Below are positions 5,585 through 60,640 of a DNA stretch of 64,000 nucleotides, one piece after another. A program made the position numbers and the translations under genes. Source of the DNA: a virus. Within the stretch, counting starts at the first letter, position 1; each line of letters opens with the position of its first letter. The notes beneath the pieces are model-generated. The model made no database searches. It was not told the DNA's origin and worked only from the letters and a program-made list of their open reading frames with translations. The stretch spans positions 49,345 to 113,344 of the IMG/VR virus record IMGVR_UViG_3300027881_000007. One strand, written 5' to 3'.

Positions 5585-5860
5585 TTATGGGCGAGGAATC
5601 TGATCTTTATCGTCTGGGGGAGAAGTTTTGGGAGATTTATCTTTAGGATCCTTCTTTTTAGCAGCAGCAGCCCACTCTTGAATCTTATTTGAACCTACAT
5701 AAGCACCCCACAAAATTGCAACTAATTCTGGGGTTAAAGAAGGATATGGTTTTTCAAAATACCAAGCAAATGGAAACATAAATACAACCATACCTGTAAG
5801 AATTGTAGCAAAGAATGCAGTCTTTGAGGCCTTGTTATCAACACTCCATAAGAATTTCAT
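5585..5860 (-). CDS. Holin candidate, small membrane protein
   Basis: ATG 5860 follows GAGGAG. About 91 residues: a basic start (MKFLWSVDNKASK), two hydrophobic segments (about residues 14-32 and 42-58), and a Lys/Pro/Asp-rich cytoplasmic tail. This is the layout of class II holins. A spanin-like pair lies 0.7-1.6 kb upstream in the same direction, supporting a lysis role, but sequence alone cannot prove it. Confidence 0.5.
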   Translation of the reverse strand: MKFLWSVDNKASKTAFFATILTGMVVFMFPFAWYFEKPYPSLTPELVAILWGAYVGSNKIQEWAAAAKKKDPKDKSPKTSPPDDKDQIPRP

Positions 5861-6588
5861 TGTATTCTCCTCACAAAAAGTAATGGCCATCTCTCATCGA
5901 AATTAGTAAAGTGTCGGTTCAACTGTTTCACTTCTTTTGTATCTGGAATATCTAATCTGTTTGGTTTAACTTTATATCTAACATTCCCTGTGAGGACACA
6001 TCCTTCAACTAGTCCACAAAACTGAGCAACCCGTTTTCCCCTTCTTTTAGGTTTTTTACAGTAGTCTTCATATCTCACAACCTTATATAAATCTGAAGGT
6101 AGTGTTGTTAATTGTGTATTTAAACGAGATAACTGTTCTTCGTGAATAACAGCTCCAGCCCTAAGATTTACTGAATGTCTTCTCCGAAAAGTTGATAAGA
6201 CACACATTATAGGATTTCTAACCATTACAACTATTTTTAAATCATCCTTAAACAAATCATATACATCATATAGATCTGGAGCGGAACGAGCACTCCCTCC
6301 AAAGGGTGCAGACCGTTTATATAGTACAACATCCTTTCTTGGAAATTTTTGAAGAAGTTTATCAATCATTGGTTGTATTTGACTCTTAGCATCTTGATGT
6401 TGTTTAAAGTCGCCTTGGCGATCCCACATTGTTCTTGTCAACTCATTAAACTCATTAATCAAGGGATCATTAAGTGGTCGATGATTTCCGCCAAGAGTTA
6501 AAACATTGCCCGGAGTGCTTAGTATTCTGAGCATCATTGTCGTACCAGAACCAGAGCAACCAACAATAAAGATAAACTTATAACTCAC
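5857..6588 (-). CDS. Sulfotransferase family protein (1)
   Basis: 243 residues from GTG 6588 with AGGAG upstream. The N-terminus VGCSGSGTTMMLRIL is the 5'-phosphosulfate loop of PAPS-dependent sulfotransferases. VRNPIMCVLSTFRRRH near residue 125 is the 3'-phosphate site (Arg and Ser), and VRYEDYCKKP is the usual following strand. It should move sulfate from PAPS to an unknown acceptor. It belongs to a set with genes at 7495, 8270 and 8979 and the APS kinase at 9631. Confidence 0.82.
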   Translation of the reverse strand: MSYKFIFIVGCSGSGTTMMLRILSTPGNVLTLGGNHRPLNDPLINEFNELTRTMWDRQGDFKQHQDAKSQIQPMIDKLLQKFPRKDVVLYKRSAPFGGSARSAPDLYDVYDLFKDDLKIVVMVRNPIMCVLSTFRRRHSVNLRAGAVIHEEQLSRLNTQLTTLPSDLYKVVRYEDYCKKPKRRGKRVAQFCGLVEGCVLTGNVRYKVKPNRLDIPDTKEVKQLNRHFTNFDERWPLLFVRRIQ

Positions 6589-6597
6589 TTCAATCTC

Positions 6598-7188
6598 CTA
6601 TAATACTAAGACAAGAGCAATCCCAACAGCAATTGCTCCTATAACTCCAAGGGTAATTTTATTTTCAATTCTTTGTTTCTCTAATTTATATTCCAACTGT
6701 AGAACTCTATTCTCGGCATTTACCCATAGAGTCCTGTAACGCTGAATGGTTATATCTTGGAGTTTGACAACATCTAACATTGCATTGTAAAGTTCAACTT
6801 CAACTTGTACTCTCTGAACCAATAGTTCAGAAATTTCAGCCATCATTTTGCCTTGCTCAATCTTGGCAACTATTTTGTTGTGCTCTTCAACAAGATATCC
6901 AACTACTTCAGCACCCTCTGGCACTTCCCCTTCCCAATCAAACTCTGTAGTCTGACCTTTTCTTATTAAGATAATGGGAACAGGTTCATTCATTTTATGA
7001 ACTTTATGAAGTATCTGCTTTAGTTTATCAACTCTGAGTTTGAAGGGGCGTTGGAATCTCTCTTCCATTTCAATGGGTTTAAATTCATCTGGAGGCTTGA
7101 AATCTTTTGGACCGCTGGCACAACTAGTCAGCAGACCAATTCCAAGCAGCACGTAGACGATCCAGGGACTCCTTAGCCGTTTGAACAT
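6598..7188 (-). CDS. Lipoprotein with C-terminal membrane anchor (unimolecular-spanin-like)
   Basis: 196 residues. The N-terminus has a basic start, a hydrophobic stretch and the lipobox LLTSC, so it should be lipidated. The middle (about 45-170) is charged and coiled-coil-like. The last about 20 residues (GVIGAIAVGIALVLVL) form a membrane segment. A lipid anchor at one end and an inner-membrane anchor at the other is the plan of unimolecular spanins, which disrupt the outer membrane. The start lies inside the upstream gene, as in nested Rz/Rz1 pairs. Confidence 0.6.
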   Translation of the reverse strand: MFKRLRSPWIVYVLLGIGLLTSCASGPKDFKPPDEFKPIEMEERFQRPFKLRVDKLKQILHKVHKMNEPVPIILIRKGQTTEFDWEGEVPEGAEVVGYLVEEHNKIVAKIEQGKMMAEISELLVQRVQVEVELYNAMLDVVKLQDITIQRYRTLWVNAENRVLQLEYKLEKQRIENKITLGVIGAIAVGIALVLVL

Positions 7189-7495
7189 TTTTTATCTCCT
7201 TAACGGTTCTATTAAAAGTCCTAATAGACCTACCTAAGTCGATCTTAACCACTTGCGCCACCTCTTCTCTTTTTGTCATCTTCGTTGCTAGGTTGTCATT
7301 TGCAACAGCAAGCTGACTTAGTGCAGTTGTTAGTTGTTGCATTTGAACGAACTGTTTCATTTCATAGTTGTGGCGGTCCGTTAGCATATCCTTTGTCTCA
7401 CTACGATAGCTAAGAAATATAATGAGAATAATAATAGCGAGAATGAATATGCCAAAGTCCTTAATTATTCCTAAGGCCTTGCTGAGTGCATCCAT
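7124..7495 (-). CDS. Membrane-anchored coiled-coil protein, i-spanin-like
   Basis: ATG 7495 overlaps the upstream stop (TAATG) and has GGAG eight bases before it. One N-terminal membrane helix (FGIFILAIIILIIFL) is followed by about 85 residues of heptad-like helix. This is the topology of inner-membrane spanins. It overlaps the lipoprotein gene by 65 bases. Alternatively it could be any membrane-tethered coiled coil. Confidence 0.55.
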   Translation of the reverse strand: MDALSKALGIIKDFGIFILAIIILIIFLSYRSETKDMLTDRHNYEMKQFVQMQQLTTALSQLAVANDNLATKMTKREEVAQVVKIDLGRSIRTFNRTVKEIKNVQTAKESLDRLRAAWNWSAD

Positions 7496-8283
7496 TATAC
7501 CCACTCCTTTATTCTATATCCCAAAAGGTCAAACAGTTTTTCATTTTGTTCTCTGTAAAAGATATTAAATTCTCTCCTCACCTTTTTCTCCATTGGTTCG
7601 AAATTAGCCCCTACCCTTGACCAAACCTTATATACCTTTTCTTGGCTGTCCTTATACATATCCCCTGTTTTCTTGCTATACCTTTTAGAAGGATGAATAA
7701 TTTCAGTGGGAAAGTCAATAGGATCTGCTCCAAGAAATTCGTGTATCTTACTCATCTCATTAGTGGTATCTTCTTTCATCCTTTCGACAATGTATATATG
7801 AACCTGTTCTCTAGGAATATTTATAAAGACATTTTCTGCAAGATGCTTATAATATCTTCCCAATCTCAGATACATAGTCTTAAATTTTCTACAATTTTCT
7901 AAAGTAAATTTCCAGTTCACTTTTTTTGCTTGAACATTCATTCTATAGTGTGAGTATGCCCGATCAGTTGGATTTCTAATTCCTATTATCAGTTTTGTGT
8001 CAGGAGCATATCTGCCCATAAGTCTCATAGCTTTTCTATGTCCTGCATAATCTGGACTTTTTTCACCAGAAATTTTTCCCACAAACTTACTCTTATACCA
8101 TTTAATTCCTTTATTCCAATTGTGTAAACCCCAAAATCTCATTTCAGTTCCACCGCCTACACCTGGTCTAACTGGACCTCCCCTTTTAGACATTGTTATA
8201 TCTGGATGTTTATTCAGGTTTAGAAACAACTGAGTAGTTCCACACTTTAAAAAACCTGCTATTATAAAATCAGGAAGTTTCAA
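7495..8283 (-). CDS. Sulfotransferase (2)
   Basis: 262 residues from a TTG start with AGGAG at seven bases. The PAPS loop is FLKCGTTQLFLNLNKHP. GEKSPDYAG and IGIRNPTDRAYSHYRMN follow, which is the classic order for the heparan-type sulfotransferase domain: 5' loop, then the 3' site with Arg and Ser. This is the clearest sulfotransferase of the four. The acceptor could be a phage structural protein, a host glycan or a small molecule; nothing here decides. Confidence 0.9.
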   Translation of the reverse strand: MKLPDFIIAGFLKCGTTQLFLNLNKHPDITMSKRGGPVRPGVGGGTEMRFWGLHNWNKGIKWYKSKFVGKISGEKSPDYAGHRKAMRLMGRYAPDTKLIIGIRNPTDRAYSHYRMNVQAKKVNWKFTLENCRKFKTMYLRLGRYYKHLAENVFINIPREQVHIYIVERMKEDTTNEMSKIHEFLGADPIDFPTEIIHPSKRYSKKTGDMYKDSQEKVYKVWSRVGANFEPMEKKVRREFNIFYREQNEKLFDLLGYRIKEWV

Positions 8284-8977
8284 TACAATCTCCTATCTCG
8301 TAAACTGGTCCATCGAATTTATTAAATACCTTTATAACATCATTAAATCTTGGGTCAACCCTTTTCAACATAAAACCATTCTTCTTATGGTTGAGTATTC
8401 TCCCAACTCTCATAGGTTCTCTGTAATCGAATGGATCTAGATTACAATGTTCATAAATTCTCGCTGATATTTCTTTAAAGTTTGAGACCATATTTTCATA
8501 CTTTATTGTTAAACAACTTTTTAAGTCTGCAATCATTTCAGTGTACTTTGGTATATAAGTAATATACTCATCAATCATTCTGGGAATCTGTTTCATCTTT
8601 CCCCTTTTACGATATTTCATTTTTATAATCGAATTCCATGAGTCAAGGGGATGTCTCACTATTTGAATTATTCTTGCATCACTACCAAAGAGTTCATTCC
8701 ATTTTTCACAATATTCAACAACTGTAATATTTGATAAATGGCGTTTACCAATTACTCTCTTTTCGTAGATTAGTTTATCTCCATGATTTAACTTAAACTT
8801 AGGGTATTTGTTGTAAAGATAATTCTTAGTTGTAAATTGAAATCTAGATGAATATCTACTTCGTATTATATGCTCTTCATTAAACATACCTGCCATTTGT
8901 GGATGTTTCTTACAAGTCCTATATGTAAGTGTAGTCCCACTTCTTGGAAATCCGACAACCAAAACCTTTACTCCCAA
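8270..8977 (-). CDS. Sulfotransferase (3)
   Basis: 235 residues from TTG 8977 with GGGGGAG upstream. LVVGFPRSGTTLTYR is the PAPS 5' loop (PRSGTT), QIVRHPLDSWNSI the 3'-phosphate site, and IKYENM the next conserved strand. It overlaps gene 2 by 14 bases, so the two are co-translated. Its sequence outside the motifs is different from the other copies, so these are not recent duplicates. Confidence 0.88.
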   Translation of the reverse strand: MGVKVLVVGFPRSGTTLTYRTCKKHPQMAGMFNEEHIIRSRYSSRFQFTTKNYLYNKYPKFKLNHGDKLIYEKRVIGKRHLSNITVVEYCEKWNELFGSDARIIQIVRHPLDSWNSIIKMKYRKRGKMKQIPRMIDEYITYIPKYTEMIADLKSCLTIKYENMVSNFKEISARIYEHCNLDPFDYREPMRVGRILNHKKNGFMLKRVDPRFNDVIKVFNKFDGPVYEIGDCIETS

Positions 8978-8978
8978 A

Positions 8979-9650
8979 TCATCTCCCCCTTAAACGCTTA
9001 TGAAACTTGTTAACTTCTCTATAGAGTTCTTTTGTTCTTTCAATAACTACTTCTTCTACTTCTTTACTTATTGGTTTATTAGTTGAGGCTTTTCTGTGAT
9101 CTACAACATTTATTAACTTTCTAAATGGTCCAACGTCCTGGAGTTTTATATCGTTTGTCCATTGTTCAAATCTTACAATAGGATTCCCTGACTCCAAAAA
9201 ATCAAAAACAACATTGTTCCATCTTGTTGTGTACCAGATAGCTAGTTTCTCTGTGTCTACGCCTCCAAAGCGTTCAGCCTGTTCGGGGTGTCTTCGACTA
9301 TACATTGAGCAATAAGCGTACACAGGATTTCGTACAATACACATTGCCTTAATAGAATTTATTGTTAGAAATGGAGTAAACTTAGAGACCCCACCACTGA
9401 ATAGAATGGGTTTTTTAGAATTGTGAACGAACCTTACTAAATTATCGTTAAGATTGATAGTCATATCAAGGTCAGTCCCAGTACGTTGTTTCCATCTTTT
9501 CTGCATAGTTGCTTTTGGCATATAACATATATCACCTGCGGAACCGATAACTGTATCTGGTCGCATATGAGCATTCATCAAACGTCTAACAAGAGATGTG
9601 GCATGACCACCCCATGGTGCAATTGCTACTTTAATATTCTGGTTCTTCAT
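8979..9650 (-). CDS. Sulfotransferase-like protein with degenerate PAPS loop (4)
   Basis: ATG 9650 has GGGAAGG upstream. The first strand and loop read VAIAPWGGHATSLVRRLM, where the usual SGTT is replaced by GHAT. The 3'-phosphate region is recognisable (IVRNPVYAYCSMYSRRHPE), similar to copy 1. It may be a diverged or inactive sulfotransferase, or bind another nucleotide. It overlaps the APS kinase end by 20 bases. Confidence 0.6.
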   Translation of the reverse strand: MKNQNIKVAIAPWGGHATSLVRRLMNAHMRPDTVIGSAGDICYMPKATMQKRWKQRTGTDLDMTINLNDNLVRFVHNSKKPILFSGGVSKFTPFLTINSIKAMCIVRNPVYAYCSMYSRRHPEQAERFGGVDTEKLAIWYTTRWNNVVFDFLESGNPIVRFEQWTNDIKLQDVGPFRKLINVVDHRKASTNKPISKEVEEVVIERTKELYREVNKFHKRLRGR

Positions 9651-9966
9651 ATTCTGTACCTTCCCATAACTCTCCAAATGGGAGACAAATTTCAAGACAT
9701 TCCAAAAGTAGTGATTGTGCCTTCTTCCTCCATTCTCTCTTCGGACTAATACAAGCGACTACAACTGTAAACCCTTGTTCTTCTAATAATGCAGCAAACT
9801 TTGCTATGAGCATTATATTGCTTTCTCGTCCCTCATCTGTAAAATCAGAGGGAAAATGTTCTCTTATCCTGTCCCCATCTAAAACAATACCATTAGTTTG
9901 TCTAGCAATACGATTTGCTAAAGTTGTCTTACCCGCCCCAGATCGACCTGTAATCCAATATACCAT
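9631..9966 (-). CDS. cysC: Compact adenylylsulfate (APS) kinase
   Basis: 111 residues. The P-loop GRSGAGKTTLA, LDGDRIR, and ACISPKREWR are the signature steps of APS kinase, which phosphorylates APS to PAPS. The usual protein is near 200 residues. Here the lid and nucleoside region between ISP and the end is deleted, but the tail GTEYEEPE aligns with the usual TGIDxxYExPE end. It supplies the donor for the adjoining sulfotransferases. AAA-type kinase is an alternative, but DGD and ISP favour CysC. Confidence 0.85.
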   Translation of the reverse strand: MVYWITGRSGAGKTTLANRIARQTNGIVLDGDRIREHFPSDFTDEGRESNIMLIAKFAALLEEQGFTVVVACISPKREWRKKAQSLLLECLEICLPFGELWEGTEYEEPEY

Positions 9967-35933: not shown

Positions 35934-36078
35934 TGGTAGGGGGTACGGCATATGGATGCTGAATGGCTTGCTACAAGTCATTCAAGATGGTTGGGAGGAC
36001 GCTTTTCAAATCGGCGGGTCTTTCCTTCTTTCAACCGCTGATACCGTCTTGGGTTCGATTCCCGCCCCCTATCACCCA
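35934..36078 (+). ncRNA. tRNA-like RNA with large insertion, own terminator
   Basis: TGGTAGGGGG (35934-35943) pairs with CCCCCTATCA (36065-36074), followed by CCCA. Inside are a D-arm (CGGC-ATATGGAT-GCTG, 35946-35961), an anticodon-like arm TGGCT-TGCTACA-AGTCA (35964-35980), and a T arm with GGGTTCGATTCCC (36051-36063). Between the last two lies an extra long hairpin (GGTTG/CAACC and GGAGGAC/GTCTTTC). Anticodon would be CTA but position 33 is G, so identity is uncertain. It may be an odd tRNA, a tRNA with insertion, or another tRNA-mimic RNA. Confidence 0.55.
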
Positions 36079-36087
36079 GAGAAAAAG

Positions 36088-36117
36088 GTGCTCAGATTTG
36101 TCTGAGTACTTTTTTTT
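36088..36117 (+). terminator. Terminator of the tRNA-like RNA
   Basis: GTGCTCAGA - TTTG - TCTGAGTAC with eight T after it. Near-perfect nine-pair stem (one G-T). Confidence 0.88.
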
Positions 36118-36182: not shown

Positions 36183-38498
36183 AGTGAACCAATGTTTAGT
36201 AAAAACCCAAATGAAACAAGTGAACCAAAGGAGAGGAGGCACAAACCCGATTAACCTCAGTGAACCAATTAGTTGGAGAAACCCAGTTTCAAAAAGTGAA
36301 CCAATGCGGATAACAAAACCTAAAGGTGAGAAGTGAACCAATGTGATTAATAAACCCAATAGGAGGGTAGTGAACCAGATGCTTCAAGAATCTAATGGAA
36401 CCTAGTGAACCAATATCTAGAAGTCCACCAATCGTTGTAAAGTGAACCATTTGGAAAGAGTATCCCATCTCACCCCAGTGTACCACGTGGTATAAGCACA
36501 ACCAATCAGTCTAGTGAACCACAATGGTGGAGAAAACCACAACATAGTTAGTGAACCAAACCTATGATAAAAACCCGCCGGATCAAAGTGAACCACAAGC
36601 CTGCAGTAAACCTCCGGAATGGAGTGAACCAGCGAAGCTCAGCAATCCTATATTTCTGAGTGGACCACAATGGTACAGAAACCCAAGATGTAACAAGTGT
36701 AAAAAACCAATCGGTGCAGGGCACCTCAGAGTGTACCAATCCGAAAAATTATGTGAACCAATAGTCTAGAGAAGAACCAGTCTTATAGAGTGAACCAGAC
36801 AACGACACTAATTCATTGTTGAGGAGTGAACCAATAGGAAATAGATAACCTGTTGTTGAAAGTGAACCAAACGTGTCCAAGAAAACCTTCCTTTCTTAGT
36901 GAACCACCGTGATTTAGGACACCTTAGGATCCAAAGTGAACCAGTAAAAAGCTAGTCACCCAGAGGGGTGGAGTGAACCTACGTTGGTTAGAAATCCAGT
37001 ACATGACAGTGAACCAATTAGTGTAAGAACAACCAAGAACAAACAGTGAACCATCTCGCCAGAGTAATCCAATTGCGCGGAGTGAACCAATCTAAGGAAG
37101 AAACCCAGTTTTGAACAGTGAACCAATGCTATCCAGTAAACCTGTGCGGAGGAAGTGAACCTGTTGAAGGAAGCGACCCTTGATGACCAAGTGAACCGAG
37201 ACGAGATAGATAACCTACGATATTGAGTGAACCCACCAGGGCTAGAAACCCTAGAAAGCATAAGTGAACCATTCCCCTGCAGTACTCCATCCTTGCCGAG
37301 TGAACCGAACCGAAGTAGAACTCCCACAAAATGAAGTGAACCCGTTAGCCTCAGTAGACCAGAATCAATGAGTGAACCTAAGGAGAGTAGAAACCTTCAT
37401 GTCTAAGTGAACCAATTTGCGAGAGTAACCCATTCCCCTTCAGTGAACCAACCCGGGGTAGAAACCCGACAAAGTCAAAGTGAACCGTGAGGCTTGAGAT
37501 AACCACCTCCTGTAAGTGAACTATTAATGAAACAGAAAACCAATCAAGGTCAGTGAACCAATAGAAGAAATGAAAATCAGATAGCACAAGTGAACCGTAA
37601 AATGTCATAAACCCGAAATATTTGAGTGAACCAGTCCTATGAAGCAACCGAGCATCGCTAGTGAACCAAGTTACGTAGTTAACCAAATTGCCGAGTGTAC
37701 CATATTGGTCAACCAACCCAGACAGAATAAGTGAACCTGGTATGGATAAATAATCTAAGACGATAAGTGAACCAGGACATCGAAGAAAAACCACGAAAAC
37801 TCAGTGGACCAAGATCGGATAGAAATCCAATCGTGAGTAGTGAACCATTTTGTGCTAGAAAAACCCGGAAGTCAAAGTGAACCATCAAGGAGGTCTAAAT
37901 GAGCGAGATTGAATTAGGGCGAAAGGTAAGGGATACGGTTTCTGGATTTGAAGGAATTGCTGTTTGTCGTCACATTTATCTAAATGGTTGTGCAAGACTT
38001 AGCATTCAAGCACCCATTGATAAAGAGGGAAAATTGCCAGAGGTTGTCACCTTCGACGAACCGCAACTTGAAGTCATTGAAGAAGAGACAGGAATCGAAA
38101 AGTCAAAAGATGAAGGACCTGGCGGACCAATGCCCTATACGCCAACATCGCGTCATGAACCTAAAAGTAAATAAGTGAACCCCAGTATATCAGAAAACCA
38201 ATACAAGCGAGTGAACCAGGGGGTTTAGAAAACCGGCAAGAAAAAGTGAACCGTTATCTAATAGACACCCAAGTGTCGAAAGTGAACCATTAAAGAAACG
38301 CGTGTAACCAATTCTTCGGAGTTGAGTCCTTACCGGCACGCAGAGTGAACCAGGGTTTTTTAGTAATCCGTTAGAAATAAGTGAACCAGGGTTCTACAGT
38401 AATCCACCAGTAACGAGTGAACCATTAACCAGAAGAAATCAAAAATAAAAAGTGAACCAGAAAGAAGCTAAAAACCCCAAAATCGGAAAGTGAACCGA
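36183..38498 (+). repeat. TIGR-like dual-repeat array (57 units, about 36 nt)
   Basis: AGTGAACC (or a one-base variant) starts at 57 positions, 48 before the embedded gene and 9 after. Steps are 34-38 nt with few exceptions (22, 24/39, 40). The usual unit is AGTGAACCA, nine variable bases, AGAAACCCA or AGTAATCCA, nine variable bases; for example 37045-37116 has two exact 9-9-9-9 units. Variable parts differ in every unit. Alternating edge and loop repeats with two short spacers per 36 nt is the plan of TIGR arrays, not of CRISPR (28-37 nt repeat, about 30 nt spacer). A Tas-like gene follows at once. Confidence 0.85.
37899..38174 (+). CDS. Small gene embedded in the repeat array
   Basis: 91 residues from ATG 37899 with AAGGAGG upstream. 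LGRKVRDTVSGFEGIAVCRH, then YLNGCARLSIQAP and DEPQLEVIEEE give a small beta-barrel-like phage protein family seen in many phages without known role. The repeat array stops 15 bases before its ribosome site and restarts on the last base of its stop codon. It may be an inserted passenger, a TIGR-linked factor, or an ordinary phage gene caught in the array. Confidence 0.7.
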   Translation: MSEIELGRKVRDTVSGFEGIAVCRHIYLNGCARLSIQAPIDKEGKLPEVVTFDEPQLEVIEEETGIEKSKDEGPGGPMPYTPTSRHEPKSK

Positions 38499-38509
38499 GG
38501 AGAAGTGTA

Positions 38510-39673
38510 ATGACCAAAGAAATTCTAGAACCAATCAGATCAATCGCTGATATCTTCAAAGGTAGAGGTTTTGATATACCCGTGGAACCTATACCTGAAT
38601 TGTGGAGTCCAAAGATTGAACTGAGAGCATTGATCAGAGGATACGACGACATTCAACGTGACAGAATCAGAATGGGAAATAGGATTCTTGGAAACTTATA
38701 TCGTCGTTTTGGTCTTAAACCAGGAGAGAAGAAAGATGGTCTTGGAGGCCTCCCAAGAGAGTTGATGGGTCTTATCTCCAGAGAGTACAAAAGAATTACT
38801 GATGGTGTCGTAATTAACATGAGAGAGATTCCAAACATTGTGAGAGATGCACATCCCGGTATAATCTCGGATGAAATCATGTTCGTGTTTGTTGACACCT
38901 ATTTAAAACTCGTTAAACAAGAGTACATAATCACCAAACAACTTGAATTATTTCTTGAAGAATTTCCAATTTGGACAGATCATCTGAAAGGACTTAGTGG
39001 AGTTGGTCCTACTATGGGTGGTATTATGGTGAGCGAACTTGATCCTCATAGAGCAGCACACGTTACTTCATTTTGGAGTTATGCTGGACTTGATGTGGTA
39101 TGGACAGTGGATACTATTGATGGTGAAGAAGTTGTCAGAGGAGAAGGTAGGAGCAAAAAGGCACACCACCTAGTTGATAGGGAATATGTGGATAAGGGTG
39201 GTCATACCAAAACAAAGAAGAGTATAACTTATTCCCCATACCTGAAAACAAAACTCCATGTCCTGGCAACAAGTTTTCTCCGTAAACAGGACGACAAATA
39301 TTCTCCCATCTTTTACGACTACAGAACTCGGATGCAGGGCAGGAGAGAATTCTTTGTTAGAGGTTTGAAAAGTAAACAAATTCTCTATAAGAAGGATCCT
39401 CATGATTCTGAAGGTCTGTTAACTCTTAGCTCCGCAAAGGTTGAACTCTGTAAAACATGGAGGGAGAAACAAAAGAAAACTCCAACTCTGGCGCAAACCA
39501 AGAAGTTTGTCACAAGTAACATCATGAGTGACAACCATATTAAGAACATGAGCATTCGCTATATGCTCAAAATATTCCTTCTTGATCTGTGGTCAAAGTG
39601 GAGGGAGTTAGAAGGATTGCCTGTATCGTCTCCGTATGAAGAAGACAAACTGGGCATTGTGCATTCTAAGTGA
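38510..39673 (+). CDS. Tas-like protein (IS110/Nop-like domain, no nuclease)
   Basis: 387 residues. The last repeat of the array overlaps its ribosome site (GAGGAGAAG). The N-terminal about 150 residues are helical and charged. LKGLSGVGPTMGGIMVSEL, then ARAAHVTSFWSYAGLD-like HVTSFWSYAGLDVVWTVD (about 165-205), is the helix-hairpin-helix and core of the IS110 Transposase_20 domain, which is related to Nop domains of box C/D RNPs and Tas proteins. No N-terminal DEDD (RuvC) domain and no HNH motif are seen, so it is closest to nuclease-free TasA. A free-standing IS110 remnant is the alternative. Confidence 0.72.
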   Translation: MTKEILEPIRSIADIFKGRGFDIPVEPIPELWSPKIELRALIRGYDDIQRDRIRMGNRILGNLYRRFGLKPGEKKDGLGGLPRELMGLISREYKRITDGVVINMREIPNIVRDAHPGIISDEIMFVFVDTYLKLVKQEYIITKQLELFLEEFPIWTDHLKGLSGVGPTMGGIMVSELDPHRAAHVTSFWSYAGLDVVWTVDTIDGEEVVRGEGRSKKAHHLVDREYVDKGGHTKTKKSITYSPYLKTKLHVLATSFLRKQDDKYSPIFYDYRTRMQGRREFFVRGLKSKQILYKKDPHDSEGLLTLSSAKVELCKTWREKQKKTPTLAQTKKFVTSNIMSDNHIKNMSIRYMLKIFLLDLWSKWRELEGLPVSSPYEEDKLGIVHSK

Positions 39674-39699: not shown

Positions 39700-39736
39700 G
39701 ACCCCGAGAGTTTAGATGATCTCGGGGTCTTTTTTT
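39700..39736 (+). terminator. Terminator after the Tas-like gene
   Basis: GACCCCGAGA - TTTAGATGA - TCTCGGGGTC followed by seven T. Perfect ten-pair stem. Confidence 0.9.
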
Positions 39737-39756
39737 CGGTTATGTAAAAAACCTCC

Positions 39757-39773
39757 TACTATATATATTACTT
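39757..39773 (+). promoter_or_regulatory. Promoter-like motif (copy 4)
   Basis: TACTATATATATTACTT, 16 of 17 matches to the recurrent motif, about 20 bases before the GGAGG of the next gene. Confidence 0.55.
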
Positions 39774-39793
39774 ATTTGAAAGGAGGTTTTTAT

Positions 39794-40072
39794 ATGAAAT
39801 ATATATGCGTAAAATGCAGGCACACCTGGTCAGTCAATAATGACAACCATGGTCTGATTAAAATATTCCTTCTCTATCTGCAAGAAAAATGGAACCCCGA
39901 TCCTTGTCCATATTCTGGCGGAATATGCGAAAGTTGCATTACTGAATATGTACGAGGAAAGCAGAAAACCAGAGGGGAGGATCCTTGTTTTAAAGAGGAA
40001 CGGATCATTAAAGTGTGCGAACGAAACGATTGTACTTACCATAAGTTTTGCTGTGGAGAACCTTATAAATGA
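39794..40072 (+). CDS. Cys-rich zinc protein
   Basis: ATG 39794 follows AAAGGAGG. The product starts MKYICVKCRHTWSVNND and has about ten Cys (CPYSGGICESC, CERNDCTYHKFCC). Multiple zinc sites are likely. First gene of a short rightward operon of tiny genes. Function unknown. Confidence 0.6.
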   Translation: MKYICVKCRHTWSVNNDNHGLIKIFLLYLQEKWNPDPCPYSGGICESCITEYVRGKQKTRGEDPCFKEERIIKVCERNDCTYHKFCCGEPYK

Positions 40073-44465: not shown

Positions 44466-45464
44466 TTATTTTTTCTTAAGCATCTCCTTTGTAACATTAA
44501 TATCTTTTACAGCCCAAGCATCCCAGCAGAAATCATTAATATAATTGTAAGGGAGATAACCATAACCTTTCTCTCCCCAATTTGTTCCCCAAGAATTCTT
44601 GAACTTTACTAGCTTTTTATTTGAATCATATCCAACAAAGCAAATAGCGTGACCTCCATAGAGAACTTTTGGATTTGCTGGATATGGAACATAACCATCA
44701 TCTCCGACATGGAATATCTCTTCATAGCAACCAATGCCGGCAAGACATGGACCGACGTTTTTCAACGACCATTCAATTTGTTCTATGTTCTCTAGTCTGT
44801 AATAGTGACCACACATTGTCCAAAGGGAAATCATTTTCGCCCATCTCTTTGGACTCCCTAACGTCCTGTCGCTATACGGCCATGCCTTCTCTGGCGGAAC
44901 TCCCATTTTCTGAAGGATTTTGAGTGCAAACCTAAAACTTGTGCCTTCTTGATTTGGCCAGGAATCAATTTCTTTCGACTTGTGATAAAGCCACTGTTCT
45001 GATAAGTCGTAGTGTTTTGCTTTTCGCCTGTACTTCTTCCCCATGAGCATTTCATCAATATGCTCCTTTTGCTCTTGCCATTCTTTCATTGAAACAACTG
45101 CAAAACCAACACAAGAACCTTTACGACCTTGATCTTTCACTGGAGACATTTCACCTGTATAATCTACAGATAAAGAATAAGTAAGTGGTAGTTCGGTAAT
45201 GGTAGAAGCCTTATAATCTCTCGTATCAAGAGGATCTGGTTTATAATTAAGTAAATATGGAAACGAACTAGTTCTCCCCCGCTCTCCAACTCTTTGAATT
45301 ACAATAGGAGTATCAATGACATAATCAGTAATTCCGGCTGCTCTTAATTGGTTAAATATCAAATCCCGATTATGGTCATTAAAGTCTATTATACATGGGG
45401 TTCTCACTTGACTGTGGTCCAAATTCAGGAGACTCCCCTTCTGGTTTATCCGTAGTTTCGGCAT
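44466..45464 (-). CDS. Papain-like cysteine protease (C1A family)
   Basis: 332 residues. MSPVKDQGRKGSCVGFAVVS has the nucleophile Cys (about 118), GGHAICFVGYD the His (about 274), and FKNSWGTNWGEKGYG the Asn (about 290), the full papain triad with an N-terminal about 85-residue extension. It stands between prohead protease and scaffold-like gene, and overlaps the latter. It may act in head maturation or on a host target after release; both are inference. Confidence 0.88.
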   Translation of the reverse strand: MPKLRINQKGSLLNLDHSQVRTPCIIDFNDHNRDLIFNQLRAAGITDYVIDTPIVIQRVGERGRTSSFPYLLNYKPDPLDTRDYKASTITELPLTYSLSVDYTGEMSPVKDQGRKGSCVGFAVVSMKEWQEQKEHIDEMLMGKKYRRKAKHYDLSEQWLYHKSKEIDSWPNQEGTSFRFALKILQKMGVPPEKAWPYSDRTLGSPKRWAKMISLWTMCGHYYRLENIEQIEWSLKNVGPCLAGIGCYEEIFHVGDDGYVPYPANPKVLYGGHAICFVGYDSNKKLVKFKNSWGTNWGEKGYGYLPYNYINDFCWDAWAVKDINVTKEMLKKK

Positions 45465-49303: not shown

Positions 49304-49352
49304 CAAAAAAATAGACTCAACAGTGAAGCACAATTACTCCACTGTTGAGTTC
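49304..49352 (-). terminator. Terminator of the acidic scaffold gene
   Basis: On the minus strand ACTCAACAGTG (49350-49340) pairs with CACTGTTGAGTC (49325-49314), followed by TATTTTTTTGG. Confidence 0.8.
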
Positions 49353-54179: not shown

Positions 54180-54466
54180 CTTATTCTCTTCCCATCAGTT
54201 GGATCAACTACAATTCCCGTTGCTGCTCTTGGTCTCCAATCATCACCCTTTTTATTTTCTTCTCTTTTGCCAACAATGTTCTCAACCCAATCAAGTTTTC
54301 CCTCTCCAAGACATCTTGGGCATTGAACATAAATAGTTCGAAGTTCACCATCCTCGTTCATAACTCTTCCCCAACCATTACACGGTTCACATAAGTACTC
54401 ATTCTCGAGAAGAGTTATATTGTCATTTATATGATCTACAAGTGGCCGTACTATAATTGGTTTCAT
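54176..54466 (-). CDS. CxxCxGxG / DWVEN mini-protein
   Basis: ATG 54466 has GAGG upstream and overlaps the stop of the transglycosylase gene. LLENEYLCEPCNGWGRVMN and CPRCLGEGKLDWVENIVGKR are the two knuckles. CNGWG is shared with the neighbour at 53922. Confidence 0.62.
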   Translation of the reverse strand: MKPIIVRPLVDHINDNITLLENEYLCEPCNGWGRVMNEDGELRTIYVQCPRCLGEGKLDWVENIVGKREENKKGDDWRPRAATGIVVDPTDGKRIR

Positions 54467-55872
54467 TAGAACCTCAATGGACAAGATGGATCTAAATGTA
54501 TAAACTCATCTTTCGCTAAAAATCTATCAACTACATATTTACAATAACCTTCATCTAGAGTTGTTAGCATGTCCAATGACCTTATTAAACTATTTGTCTT
54601 TGCTTTTTGTTTTCTTGTTATTCTTTCATGGTTGAACTTCCTTGTTACCATTTCAACCCCTCTAGTAAACTCTTCTAACTCCCTTGCTTCATATAAAGGA
54701 TATAGCTCATCTGAATATCGTTTAGCTACCTCTTGTATCTGTCTCATAGACTCCAAAGAGTACAACATTGAATAAATCTTTACAGGATCATGGAAAGTTC
54801 CCATTCCATCCTTTTGATATATATCCGAAGCGCTTGTCAATGACATTCTCTTAAAACCATATTGATCAGCCATAGAGTTTAGTTCATTACTATATGCATC
54901 AAGTACTGACCGATTGTTTCTGCCAAATCTTTTATCAAGATTGTTTGTCTTCACATACATCTTTACAACCATGTCATTTTCTTCATCATAAACCAATATA
55001 TATCTCGCTCGATTCAACTGTTTAAATGCCGCTCCAGCAGAGTCGTAAGATATAACTAAATCTATGTTGTGGACTTTCTTGACATGAGTCTTAAAAAATT
55101 CATAGAAAAATATGTCTCTTGGATTGCCGATCCCAAGAACGTGAAAATGTAAATAGTTTCTATTATTTCTTTTTACTTCATTTAGCAACGGAATCAATGG
55201 GATGATATAAGTAATACATGGAGTGTTTGCGTCAGATGCAAGATTTGCAACCATACCTCCAGTCCCATGATGCTCAAACTCTGCAAACAGATTATCATCT
55301 CGCATAATCTTCATAAATATATCCCAAAGAGCAGGAGTTCTGAAATGATGAATGTAAACTAGTTTTCTTTTAACATCACTTGGAAGATTAGCAGCTCTAG
55401 TATAAGACTGATAATTCCACCTGTATATATCATCATATACCTTAAAGAAATCAGGATGTCCTCCTTGACCCGGAGGCAGGTCTAATAAAAATGCTCGATC
55501 ATATACATCTTTATGTGTTACTAAAAAGTCGTGATATATATCCAAGAGACCCTTTGTCTGTTCCAAGTTTAAATCACCCATACTAACTTGAAACCCTCCA
55601 GAGTCAACTACAATTTCAGAATTACTAAATATAGTTCCTTCTTTCATACCTCTTAACATCTTAGCTTCATTATCAGCATAACCTTCCATATTCTTTCTCT
55701 TCCGAAGGTTCTGCCCAAAAGAATGAAGAAACATATTACAAGTTTGACCAAAAAAACTTGAAAGGTCATTACGAGTAAAATGGTTGTCAAAACCCCTCTC
55801 AGGATCCCTATAAAAGTTCTCCAGTATATTGTTTAGGGTTTGGACTCCTGCACAAATGTAATCTGATGCCAT
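54466..55872 (-). CDS. DpdA/TGT-like transglycosylase (copy 1)
   Basis: 468 residues. EIVVDSGGFQVSMG (about 88-101) is the queuine tRNA-ribosyltransferase motif with its Asp. HHGTGGMVANLASD, HFHVLGIGNPRDIFFYEFF (about 235) and VISYDSAGAAFKQL (about 268) complete the TIM-barrel active site. Phage relatives (DpdA) insert 7-deazaguanines into DNA. With QueE nearby this is the likely role; tRNA modification is the alternative. About 60% similar to the copy at 56017 by eye. Confidence 0.78.
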   Translation of the reverse strand: MASDYICAGVQTLNNILENFYRDPERGFDNHFTRNDLSSFFGQTCNMFLHSFGQNLRKRKNMEGYADNEAKMLRGMKEGTIFSNSEIVVDSGGFQVSMGDLNLEQTKGLLDIYHDFLVTHKDVYDRAFLLDLPPGQGGHPDFFKVYDDIYRWNYQSYTRAANLPSDVKRKLVYIHHFRTPALWDIFMKIMRDDNLFAEFEHHGTGGMVANLASDANTPCITYIIPLIPLLNEVKRNNRNYLHFHVLGIGNPRDIFFYEFFKTHVKKVHNIDLVISYDSAGAAFKQLNRARYILVYDEENDMVVKMYVKTNNLDKRFGRNNRSVLDAYSNELNSMADQYGFKRMSLTSASDIYQKDGMGTFHDPVKIYSMLYSLESMRQIQEVAKRYSDELYPLYEARELEEFTRGVEMVTRKFNHERITRKQKAKTNSLIRSLDMLTTLDEGYCKYVVDRFLAKDEFIHLDPSCPLRF

Positions 55873-55890
55873 AATACACTCCTATCTCAA

Positions 55891-55905
55891 TTTTTTATTT
55901 GTTCC
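55891..55905 (-). promoter_or_regulatory. GAACAAATAAA promoter-like box (TGT copy 1)
   Basis: GGAACAAATAAAAAA on the minus strand, about 20-30 bases before ATG 55872. Duplicated almost exactly upstream of copy 2. Confidence 0.55.
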
Positions 55906-55965
55906 TTATTACAAAAAAATATACCGGGTAAGTCAAAGTATAAAATGGAATGAGTTTGACAGGTT

Positions 55966-56000
55966 AGAACTCACTTGGCAGATTTATAATATAGAACCAA
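55966..56000 (-). pseudogene. Relic of macro-domain gene 3' end
   Basis: On the minus strand the end of the intergenic region reads FYIINLPSEF then a stop. The intact macro-domain gene ends FYIINLPGKY and the bases around are nearly the same (GGTTCTATATTATAAA). So an earlier duplication covered the macro gene and the transglycosylase, and one macro copy was lost. Confidence 0.65.
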
Positions 56001-56016
56001 TCTACAGGCAGCTTCA

Positions 56017-57510
56017 CTAGAATCTCAACGGGCAAGATGGATCAAGATGTTTAAACTCATCTTTTGCTAAGTACCTATTAACTACATATTCACAATGATC
56101 TTCATCGAGACTTGACAACATATCTAATGATCTTCTCAAACTATTTGTTTTTGCTTTTTGCTTTCTTGTTATTCGTTCATGGTTAAACTTTCTTGTAACT
56201 AATTCAACCTCCCTATTAAACTCTTCTAACTCCCCCGCTTCATATAGAGGGTATAACTTATCTGAATGATACTTTGAGACTTCTTGAATTTTTCTTACTG
56301 ATTCTATCGAGTATAGCATTGAGTAAACTTTTATAGTATCATAAAAAGTTCCCCAACCACTACCATGACATTTACTGCACTGGTTTCCTGCCCCATTAGT
56401 ACCAGCTCCATCACAACCTTCACACACTTGATAGACGTCAGAGATATCTCTTATTGGGACCTTTGAAAACTTATATTCATGTGCCATTTTATTTATTTCA
56501 TCATTATAAGTATCAATTACTAACTTATCCTTTCTACCAAATCTTTTTATTAACTCATTAGTTTTCAGGTACATCTTTACGATCATATCATTAACTCCAT
56601 CATAAACAGGTATATATCTTGCATTAAGTAGCTGGTGAAACATTGCTCCAGCAGAGTCATAAGATATGTGTAAGTCTATATTATGAATTTTCTTAACATG
56701 AGTCTTGAAAAACTCATAGAAAAATATATCTCGTGGATTACCAATTCCAAGTACATGAAAATGTAAATAATCTCTATTATCTTTTATTGCTTCATTTAGT
56801 AGTGGGATCAACGGGAGAATATAAGTAATACATGGAGTATTGGTATCAGATGCTAAATTTGCAACCATGCCTCCAGTTCCGTGGTACTTAAACTCCTTAA
56901 ATAAATTATTATCCCGCATGATCTTTATAAATATCTTCCAAAGAGCTGGTGTTCTAAAATGATGAATATAAATTATTTTATCTCTAACATAGTTTGGAAA
57001 CCTAGCAGCCCTAGTATATGATCGAAGATTCCAGTAATATATATCATTAAAATCTTTGAAAAACTTCGGATTTTTGCCTTGACCAGGAACAAAGTCTAAA
57101 GTAAAGGCTCTATCATAATCTTTATAATGATTGTATAGAAAGCGATGATACATCTGATCAAGTACCTTTGACTGATCTTCATCTAAACGACCTTTACTGA
57201 CTTGATAACCACCCGAATCAACTACTAATTCAGTCCTAGTAAATATAAGTCTCTGCCTCATATTCCTCAGTAACTTAACTTCTGATTTATTATATTTATC
57301 CATAGCTTTAGTATCTTCGATACCAATCCTTTTATTATTTGGTAAATTTTGTCCAAAAGAGTGAAGAAAAGAATTACAGGTTTGACCAAAGAACCTCGAA
57401 AGGTCAATACGAGTAAAATTATTCATAAAACCTCTATGAGGATCTCTATAAAAATTCTCCAATATACTATTTACAGTTTGAGCGCCTGCACACATATAAT
57501 CTGATGCCAT
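56017..57510 (-). CDS. DpdA/TGT-like transglycosylase (copy 2) with zinc insertion
   Basis: 497 residues. LVVDSGGYQVSKG, HHGTGGMVANLASD-type YHGTGGMVANLASD, HVLGIGNPRDIFFYEFF and ISYDSAGAMFHQL match copy 1. A 25-residue insertion near residue 370 has CEGCDGAG and CSKCHGSG, a DnaJ-type zinc knuckle pair absent from copy 1, where the same place reads YQKDGMGTF. The insertion may change substrate or partner choice. Confidence 0.78.
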   Translation of the reverse strand: MASDYMCAGAQTVNSILENFYRDPHRGFMNNFTRIDLSRFFGQTCNSFLHSFGQNLPNNKRIGIEDTKAMDKYNKSEVKLLRNMRQRLIFTRTELVVDSGGYQVSKGRLDEDQSKVLDQMYHRFLYNHYKDYDRAFTLDFVPGQGKNPKFFKDFNDIYYWNLRSYTRAARFPNYVRDKIIYIHHFRTPALWKIFIKIMRDNNLFKEFKYHGTGGMVANLASDTNTPCITYILPLIPLLNEAIKDNRDYLHFHVLGIGNPRDIFFYEFFKTHVKKIHNIDLHISYDSAGAMFHQLLNARYIPVYDGVNDMIVKMYLKTNELIKRFGRKDKLVIDTYNDEINKMAHEYKFSKVPIRDISDVYQVCEGCDGAGTNGAGNQCSKCHGSGWGTFYDTIKVYSMLYSIESVRKIQEVSKYHSDKLYPLYEAGELEEFNREVELVTRKFNHERITRKQKAKTNSLRRSLDMLSSLDEDHCEYVVNRYLAKDEFKHLDPSCPLRF

Positions 57511-59940: not shown

Positions 59941-60612
59941 TTAGATAAAGTCAAACATCAAATGCATTCTCGTTGAAATGTTCACCTTGAACTCTTCAGC
60001 TGCATCAAGTACAAATGGTGTATTCTTCAGTAACTCGTCCCTGTTGCATCCTTGTGGCATTAAATAAATCCTATCATTAATGCCCATCTCAGCTACTTTT
60101 TGCACAAAGTTAAAATTCTCACGAGTTTCATAAAACACAACTTTTACATAAATATTTGGATACTTCACTGCCCACTTAACAAGATCAACTGCATCATCTA
60201 CATCATGAGGTAAAAACATCTTTGGTGATAAGACATAATTAGTTCTATCATTATTAGTTCTTTTATATAAATCTTTCAACCGATAACCATTTGTTTCAAC
60301 GTTTGCAAATGGATATTCCAACTTCCTCAACAACAGACTTGCATCAGTAATGTGGGCATCCCATGTGGGTTCTCCACCAGTTATCATCAATCCACACTTT
60401 TGATCATTGAGTATTTTTTGTATCTCCTTTAATGAATATTCGGCCTCCGGACTCACTCTCATTTTGACCAACGTGTCACACCAATTACATGCCTCTTTTC
60501 TTTCAACACGATCACAGTGTTTGAATCTAATGAGAAGCATTGACTTGCCTGTGTCCGGCCCTTCGCCCTGCCAAGTTTGAATACATTCGATTGCTTTAAT
60601 CTTCTTTTTCAT
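59941..60612 (-). CDS. queE: 7-carboxy-7-deazaguanine synthase
   Basis: About 223 residues, ATG 60612 after GAAAGGAG. TWQGEGPDTGKSMLLIRFKH starts the QueE radical-SAM domain. The cluster Cys are at HCDRVERKEACNWCDT, with C-x8-C-x2-C spacing, expanded relative to C-x3-C-x2-C. LMITGGEPTWD is the SAM-binding GGE loop. It converts carboxy-tetrahydropterin to the deazaguanine ring. No queC, queD or folE is seen in the window. Confidence 0.87.
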   Translation of the reverse strand: MKKKIKAIECIQTWQGEGPDTGKSMLLIRFKHCDRVERKEACNWCDTLVKMRVSPEAEYSLKEIQKILNDQKCGLMITGGEPTWDAHITDASLLLRKLEYPFANVETNGYRLKDLYKRTNNDRTNYVLSPKMFLPHDVDDAVDLVKWAVKYPNIYVKVVFYETRENFNFVQKVAEMGINDRIYLMPQGCNRDELLKNTPFVLDAAEEFKVNISTRMHLMFDFI

Positions 60613-60626
60613 GTGACTCCTTTCCA

Positions 60627-60640
60627 TTTTTTATTTGTTC
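60627..60640 (-). promoter_or_regulatory. GAACAAATAAA promoter-like box (queE)
   Basis: GAACAAATAAAAAA on the minus strand, about 20 bases before ATG 60612. Same box as for the two transglycosylase genes, so the modification genes may share regulation. Confidence 0.55.

Follow-up and report, generated by a model that had tools for sequence, protein, structure and literature searches.

We describe a TIGR-TasA system in a T4-like tailed phage, carried on a 64,000-nucleotide (nt) stretch of DNA, hereafter the window, that spans positions 49,345 to 113,344 of the 113-kb IMG/VR record IMGVR_UViG_3300027881_000007. The system is an unusually large TIGR-TasA. It joins a Nop-domain protein, TasA, in which no nuclease domain was found, to a dual-repeat array of about 55 units that ends just 5′ of the tasA gene. 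We think it likely that the guide RNAs of the array (tigRNAs) direct TasA to occupy external DNA without cutting it. The binding of tigRNAs by TasA, their processing and the targeting of two DNA strands were described by Faure et al. (2025; PMC12045711), and both the role of nuclease-free TasA and the targets of TIGR spacers are open questions in that founding paper. The array also carries a new finding, a complementarity between the last nucleotides of the two spacers of a unit.

Identity of TasA

The main features of the locus are as follows:

36183-38505, + strand: TIGR dual-repeat array, about 55 units (repeat parsing)
38489-38509, + strand: last edge repeat, followed by the ribosome-binding site of tasA, GAGGAGAAG (sequence)
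38510-39673, + strand: tasA, nuclease-free Nop-domain TIGR-associated protein (hidden Markov models, profile, fold, substitution rates)
39700-39736, + strand: probable intrinsic terminator 3′ of tasA, GACCCCGAGA...TCTCGGGGTC followed by seven T (read from sequence)

The open reading frame (ORF) at 38510-39673 encodes 387 amino acids (aa) from an ATG start and is almost certainly a TIGR-TasA. The original prediction had proposed a Tas-like protein with an IS110/Nop-like core, no nuclease, and a start right behind the last repeat, and the searches agree with it on each of these points. TasA scores 111.9 bits against the NCBIfam model NF052498 (TIGR_Tas_endo), which has a cut-off of 100. A profile of 19 homologues, compared with solved structures, found TasH and TasR first and then IS621 and ISCro4. 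The AlphaFold model of TasA (mean predicted local distance difference test score 77) consists of helices apart from a small beta insertion. In fold it comes closest to TasH (Z 18.4), followed by TasR (Z 17.8, root-mean-square deviation 1.9 Å over 193 residues), with the match spanning the Nop and coiled-coil core. IS110 follows at Z 13.1 and box C/D Nop5 at Z ~7, on a scale where Z 6-8 is the background of unrelated helical proteins. No HNH, RuvC or DEDD domain was found in TasA by the Pfam and NCBIfam hidden Markov models (HMMs), in a search that did not take the low-confidence N-terminus alone for a diverged fold. The gene opens 21 nt after position 38489, the first letter of the last edge repeat (AGTGAACC), with the ribosome-binding site between repeat and gene. 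The probable terminator was missed by a pattern scan because its loop exceeds the 8 nt limit.

The IS110-like part of the protein is its GVGPTMGG...FWSYAGLD core. The sole Pfam match is a weak one to the Transposase_20 core, spanning residues 158-196 (20 bits, below the cut-off of 21.3). The weak Transposase_20 and IS110 matches are what speaks for an IS110-family transposase, intact or decayed. We give that explanation next to no chance. The matches fall far under the IS110 cut-offs, the DEDD catalytic domain is missing, and the locus has an array rather than element ends. The position is also kept in related phages, and tasA is under strong purifying selection, with a ratio of non-synonymous to synonymous substitution rates (dN/dS) of 0.08 against the relative L006 (dS 1.34, dN 0.107). 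Membership in the IS110 transposase family was tried with the NCBIfam model and rejected (24 bits against a cut-off of 140, no DEDD domain).

TasH and TasR (PDB 9w04 and 9mty) share the Nop and coiled-coil fold with TasA (Z ~18) but carry an HNH or RuvC type domain, neither of which was found here. The IS110 RNA-guided transposases, e.g., IS621 (PDB 8wt6), have a similar Nop-like RNA-binding core, whereas the phage locus has no DEDD domain, bridge RNA or element ends. Nop5 of the box C/D snoRNP also has the Nop fold and coiled coil but belongs to a guide system for RNA methylation, with fibrillarin and L7Ae, that acts on RNA targets. TasA has two additional parts, an N-terminal helical region and the small beta insertion (residues ~196-238), which have no counterpart in minimal TasA homologues of ~270 aa.

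The Dual-Repeat Array

A unit of the array consists of an edge repeat, AGTGAACC(A), spacer A of 9-10 nt, a loop repeat close to AGAAACC(A), and spacer B of 9-10 nt. The period is mostly 36-37 nt, and the edge copies are 35-37 nt apart. Parsing gave 51 regular units and a few irregular stretches, for a total of about 55. A span of 2.3 kb holds 49 exact copies of the edge repeat, all on one strand, and that strand of the window has no others; the rest of the 113-kb record holds a single exact copy, on the opposite strand. The repetition is far beyond chance. In a logo of 716 regular units, GAGTGAACCA / GAGARWACCA, the edge and loop repeats share covarying box C/box D ends, AG...CC(A) at both, and the 8-nt cores of the spacers are fully variable. 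Position 10 of each spacer is also free in the lineage of the window. For the array, Rfam gave nothing beyond a box C/D snoRNA match that stayed below threshold.

These features resemble the TIGR-TasA systems of Faure et al. (PMC12045711), e.g., the Flavonifractor plautii locus, in which a solo Nop-domain protein adjoins a dual-repeat array. Spacers of ~9 nt, units of 36 nt, a phage-borne locus, and box D-like and box C-like motifs in the edge and loop are common to both. The known arrays usually have 5-15 units, against about 55 here. The phage system further differs in its protein of 387 aa with the extra helix and beta insertion, in an ORF embedded in the array, and in a second array without a tas gene in the 277-kb relative described below.

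Complementarity of the Last Spacer Nucleotides

The last nucleotide of spacer A is Watson-Crick complementary to the last nucleotide of spacer B in 29 of the 51 regular units of the window, where 14.0 are expected. The same holds for 66 of 123 units (33.5 expected) in the rest of the family, with orthologues removed. None of 20,000 shuffles reached the observed count, either for the window or for the relatives. When shuffling was kept inside arrays, complementary last nucleotides were found in 87/162 units, against 45.3 expected. The signal stands out among the 100 column pairs that we compared (z 6.6, with the runner-up at z 3.2), and G.U is not in excess over A.C. Other lineages, shuffled within each locus, have 88 complementary units against 73.0 expected (2/5000 shuffles), and most of them have a fixed G at both positions. 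Quantitatively, the complementarity constrains the ways in which split guides can be held or read.

Relatives and Array Evolution

Three IMG/VR records (142, 277, and 224 kb) encode a TasA that is 83% identical in aa to that of the window, with the same neighbors and an array at the matching position. The arrays of the three records are mutually identical, and thus we regard the records as one phage population. Their array is partly orthologous to that of the window. Between the arrays of the family 9-16 groups of units are clearly orthologous; some are identical, some have a few changes, and some have been relocated between the main array and a second one (e.g., window 36587 and L011 3888). 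The second array is found in the 277-kb relative (G002), is of the same repeat type, and lies at L011:15535-16510, where no tas gene was recognizable in the 20-kb stretch of L011 that holds it. Three other contigs (L026, L029, and L052) have units in common with this second array. More widely, a pattern scan of IMG/VR returned ~100 stretches with the edge repeat of the window, and many of them have a TasA homolog nearby at 20-33% identity. Shared, diverged and relocated units in related phages, and one population with two arrays, make array evolution and the tracking of targets directly open to study. The series of orthologs also makes the question of targets testable.

Search for Targets

No target was identified for any spacer. 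For self-targets, the scan covered the 113-kb record and the 277-kb relative only. There, spacer A joined to the reverse complement of spacer B, A+rc(B), was not in excess over mispaired spacers at gaps -4 to +5 or overlaps 2 to -2, and with 10-nt spacers at gaps -4 to +8 in both geometries self-targets likewise stayed within the mispaired controls. A further ~1.3 Mb of DNA from TIGR-bearing and related phages yielded no targets, and spacer matches in the viral and genome collections scanned were at about chance level. Since none were found in the phage's own DNA, the targets are probably external.

One unit is conserved in four phages, and its search against 85k genomes with a gap of 0-2 gave 24 matches where ~22 are estimated by chance. 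One of these lies in a type I-E cas7 gene (Cas7e) of a Desulfobacteraceae genome, where the conserved KRTWRTS motif is encoded. The match requires a gap of 0, a misfit with the overlap of one base pair suggested by the covariation. In I-E cas loci from a set of 20 related genomes, other units had no matches above controls, and the CRISPR spacers of I-E loci, used as a clue to the host, gave no convincing match among the matches listed. The Cas7e match is a lead only and likely due to chance.

The way in which orthologous spacers diverge is no more than suggestive of protein-coding targets. The differences fall mostly at positions 1, 4, 7, and 10, and among polymorphic core positions 16/37 are at position 4 or 7 (p 0.012). 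Non-synonymous changes between orthologous spacers are fewer than in all 300 position shuffles, a low count that is partly due to positions 1 and 10 varying more anyway. In several groups of orthologs every change is synonymous if the spacers are read as B + rc(A) with one shared base pair. A strict codon-register model, in which all units are coding and in one register, was unsupported, as stop codons are not depleted.

Codon patterns, degenerate or exact, were scanned against viral contigs. The PEWQAC pattern had 77 matches, about the chance level, some of them in phage AAA-ATPase and primase families. DGQHRV had 17 matches, including two genes for true DGQHR-motif proteins, one of which is in the DndB/DpdB family. 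FDEFYN had eight matches in ~3 independent genes, and ATRLPV had none in the viral contigs. None of the scans is clearly above chance. The Cas7e match, the DGQHR protein of the DndB/DpdB family, and the phage AAA-ATPase and primase motifs are leads, and none is established.

Proposed Mechanism and Alternatives

Following what is known from Faure et al. (PMC12045711), the array and tasA would be co-transcribed and the transcript trimmed to tigRNAs of ~36 nt. A TasA dimer would hold each tigRNA, with spacer A paired to one strand of the DNA and spacer B to the opposite strand. The cut-site rule of the same study would bring the 3′ ends of both spacers together at the center of the target, an arrangement with which the covariation is consistent, and in the lineage of the window they would meet at one shared central base pair. 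The simplest reading of the complementarity is that both half-guides may read that base pair from opposite strands. The bound complex would then occupy, and probably bend, external DNA; we infer that TasA binds without cutting. Such occupancy could block transcription or replication of foreign genes, whether of the host or of a competing phage, and we put the chances of this blocking function at about even. A further proposal is that the shared base pair lies at a codon wobble position, that binding alone silences protein-coding genes of hosts or competitors (possibly the defense genes cas7e or dndB/dpdB), and that the guides track synonymous changes. We consider this combination improbable.

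Several points weigh against this account. Complementary last nucleotides occur in only ~55% of units, so a shared base pair would not be universal, and Faure et al. (PMC12045711) saw no obvious covariation between A and B in their own systems. The two nucleotides might instead pair with each other within the folded tigRNA, close to where its figure eight crosses over, which is possible if short of probable. This would suit a covariation confined to one column pair, the preference for purine-pyrimidine combinations with purine-purine and pyrimidine-pyrimidine depleted, and the weak excess in other lineages. An RNA-RNA pair is less easily reconciled with G.U being no more frequent than A.C, which favors a shared base pair in the target, or with most other lineages, in which a fixed G at both positions could not form a Watson-Crick pair. 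The want of an identified target counts against the blocking of foreign genes, and the null result for self-targeting is limited to the two phage sequences scanned. Regulation of the phage's own genes by tigRNAs would be attractive in that binding without a nuclease is safe for the phage. It is nevertheless very unlikely, given that neither sequence has an excess of A+rc(B) over mispaired controls, and is largely refuted for near-perfect matches. Finally, TasA could guide a nuclease or another effector supplied in trans by the phage or host, with the N-terminal helix and the beta insertion as a docking surface. We judge this rather unlikely: no conserved nuclease neighbor was recognized next to tasA, in the window or its relatives, among the genes examined, and most TasA have no partner according to Faure et al. 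(PMC12045711). Occupancy of external DNA without cutting is the account that we prefer.

Irregular Units and Neighboring Genes

Three parts of the array depart from the regular unit:

36659-36751, + strand: irregular stretch with a perfect hairpin, GGTGC-AGG-GCACC, at 36713-36725 (read from sequence)
37899-38174, + strand: ORF of 91 aa between two units, phrog_16275, of unknown function (ORF call, family match)
38281-38343, + strand: irregular 63-nt unit with a TACCGGCACG motif that recurs in a counterpart near the array end of the relatives (sequence)

The first stretch is near-identical in the relatives L005-L007, in contrast to most of the array. The overlapping segment 36686-36766, which is strongly conserved in relatives, could encode RCNKCKKPIGAGHLRVYQSEKLCEPIV, a zinc-ribbon-like peptide. 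It is the captured end of a gene or else a structured RNA. The 91-aa ORF has its ribosome-binding site behind one edge repeat, its stop codon overlaps the next edge, and it had no match in any other locus compared.

Just 5′ of the array, at 35937-36077, is a structured RNA whose acceptor stem and T arm (GGGTTCGATTCCC) resemble those of a tRNA. A long stem-loop replaces the normal anticodon arm, and there is a long extra arm. The RNA is conserved and folds far better than shuffles in both phages (z -4.1); ARAGORN made no call. It is followed by a terminator-like hairpin at ~36091-36116.

A small cysteine-rich protein (39716-40072) adjoins tasA and is 53% identical in relatives. More distant homologs lie ~5-6 kb or less from the second array in L011, L026, L029, and L052, and the protein might be linked to TIGR loci. 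L026, L029, and L052 also have a tRNA-Pro gene several kb from the array.

Elsewhere in the window, 54466-57510 and 59941-60627 hold a QueE-like radical SAM gene (phrog_2076) together with a pair of paralogs, of which one has a weak match to queuine tRNA-ribosyltransferase (phrog_887). These genes hint at deazaguanine modification of DNA or RNA by the phage. The head genes include one for a papain-family cysteine protease (44466-45464), and sulfotransferase-like genes form a cluster at 5857-9695, with one member confirmed by Pfam; such genes are unusual in a phage.
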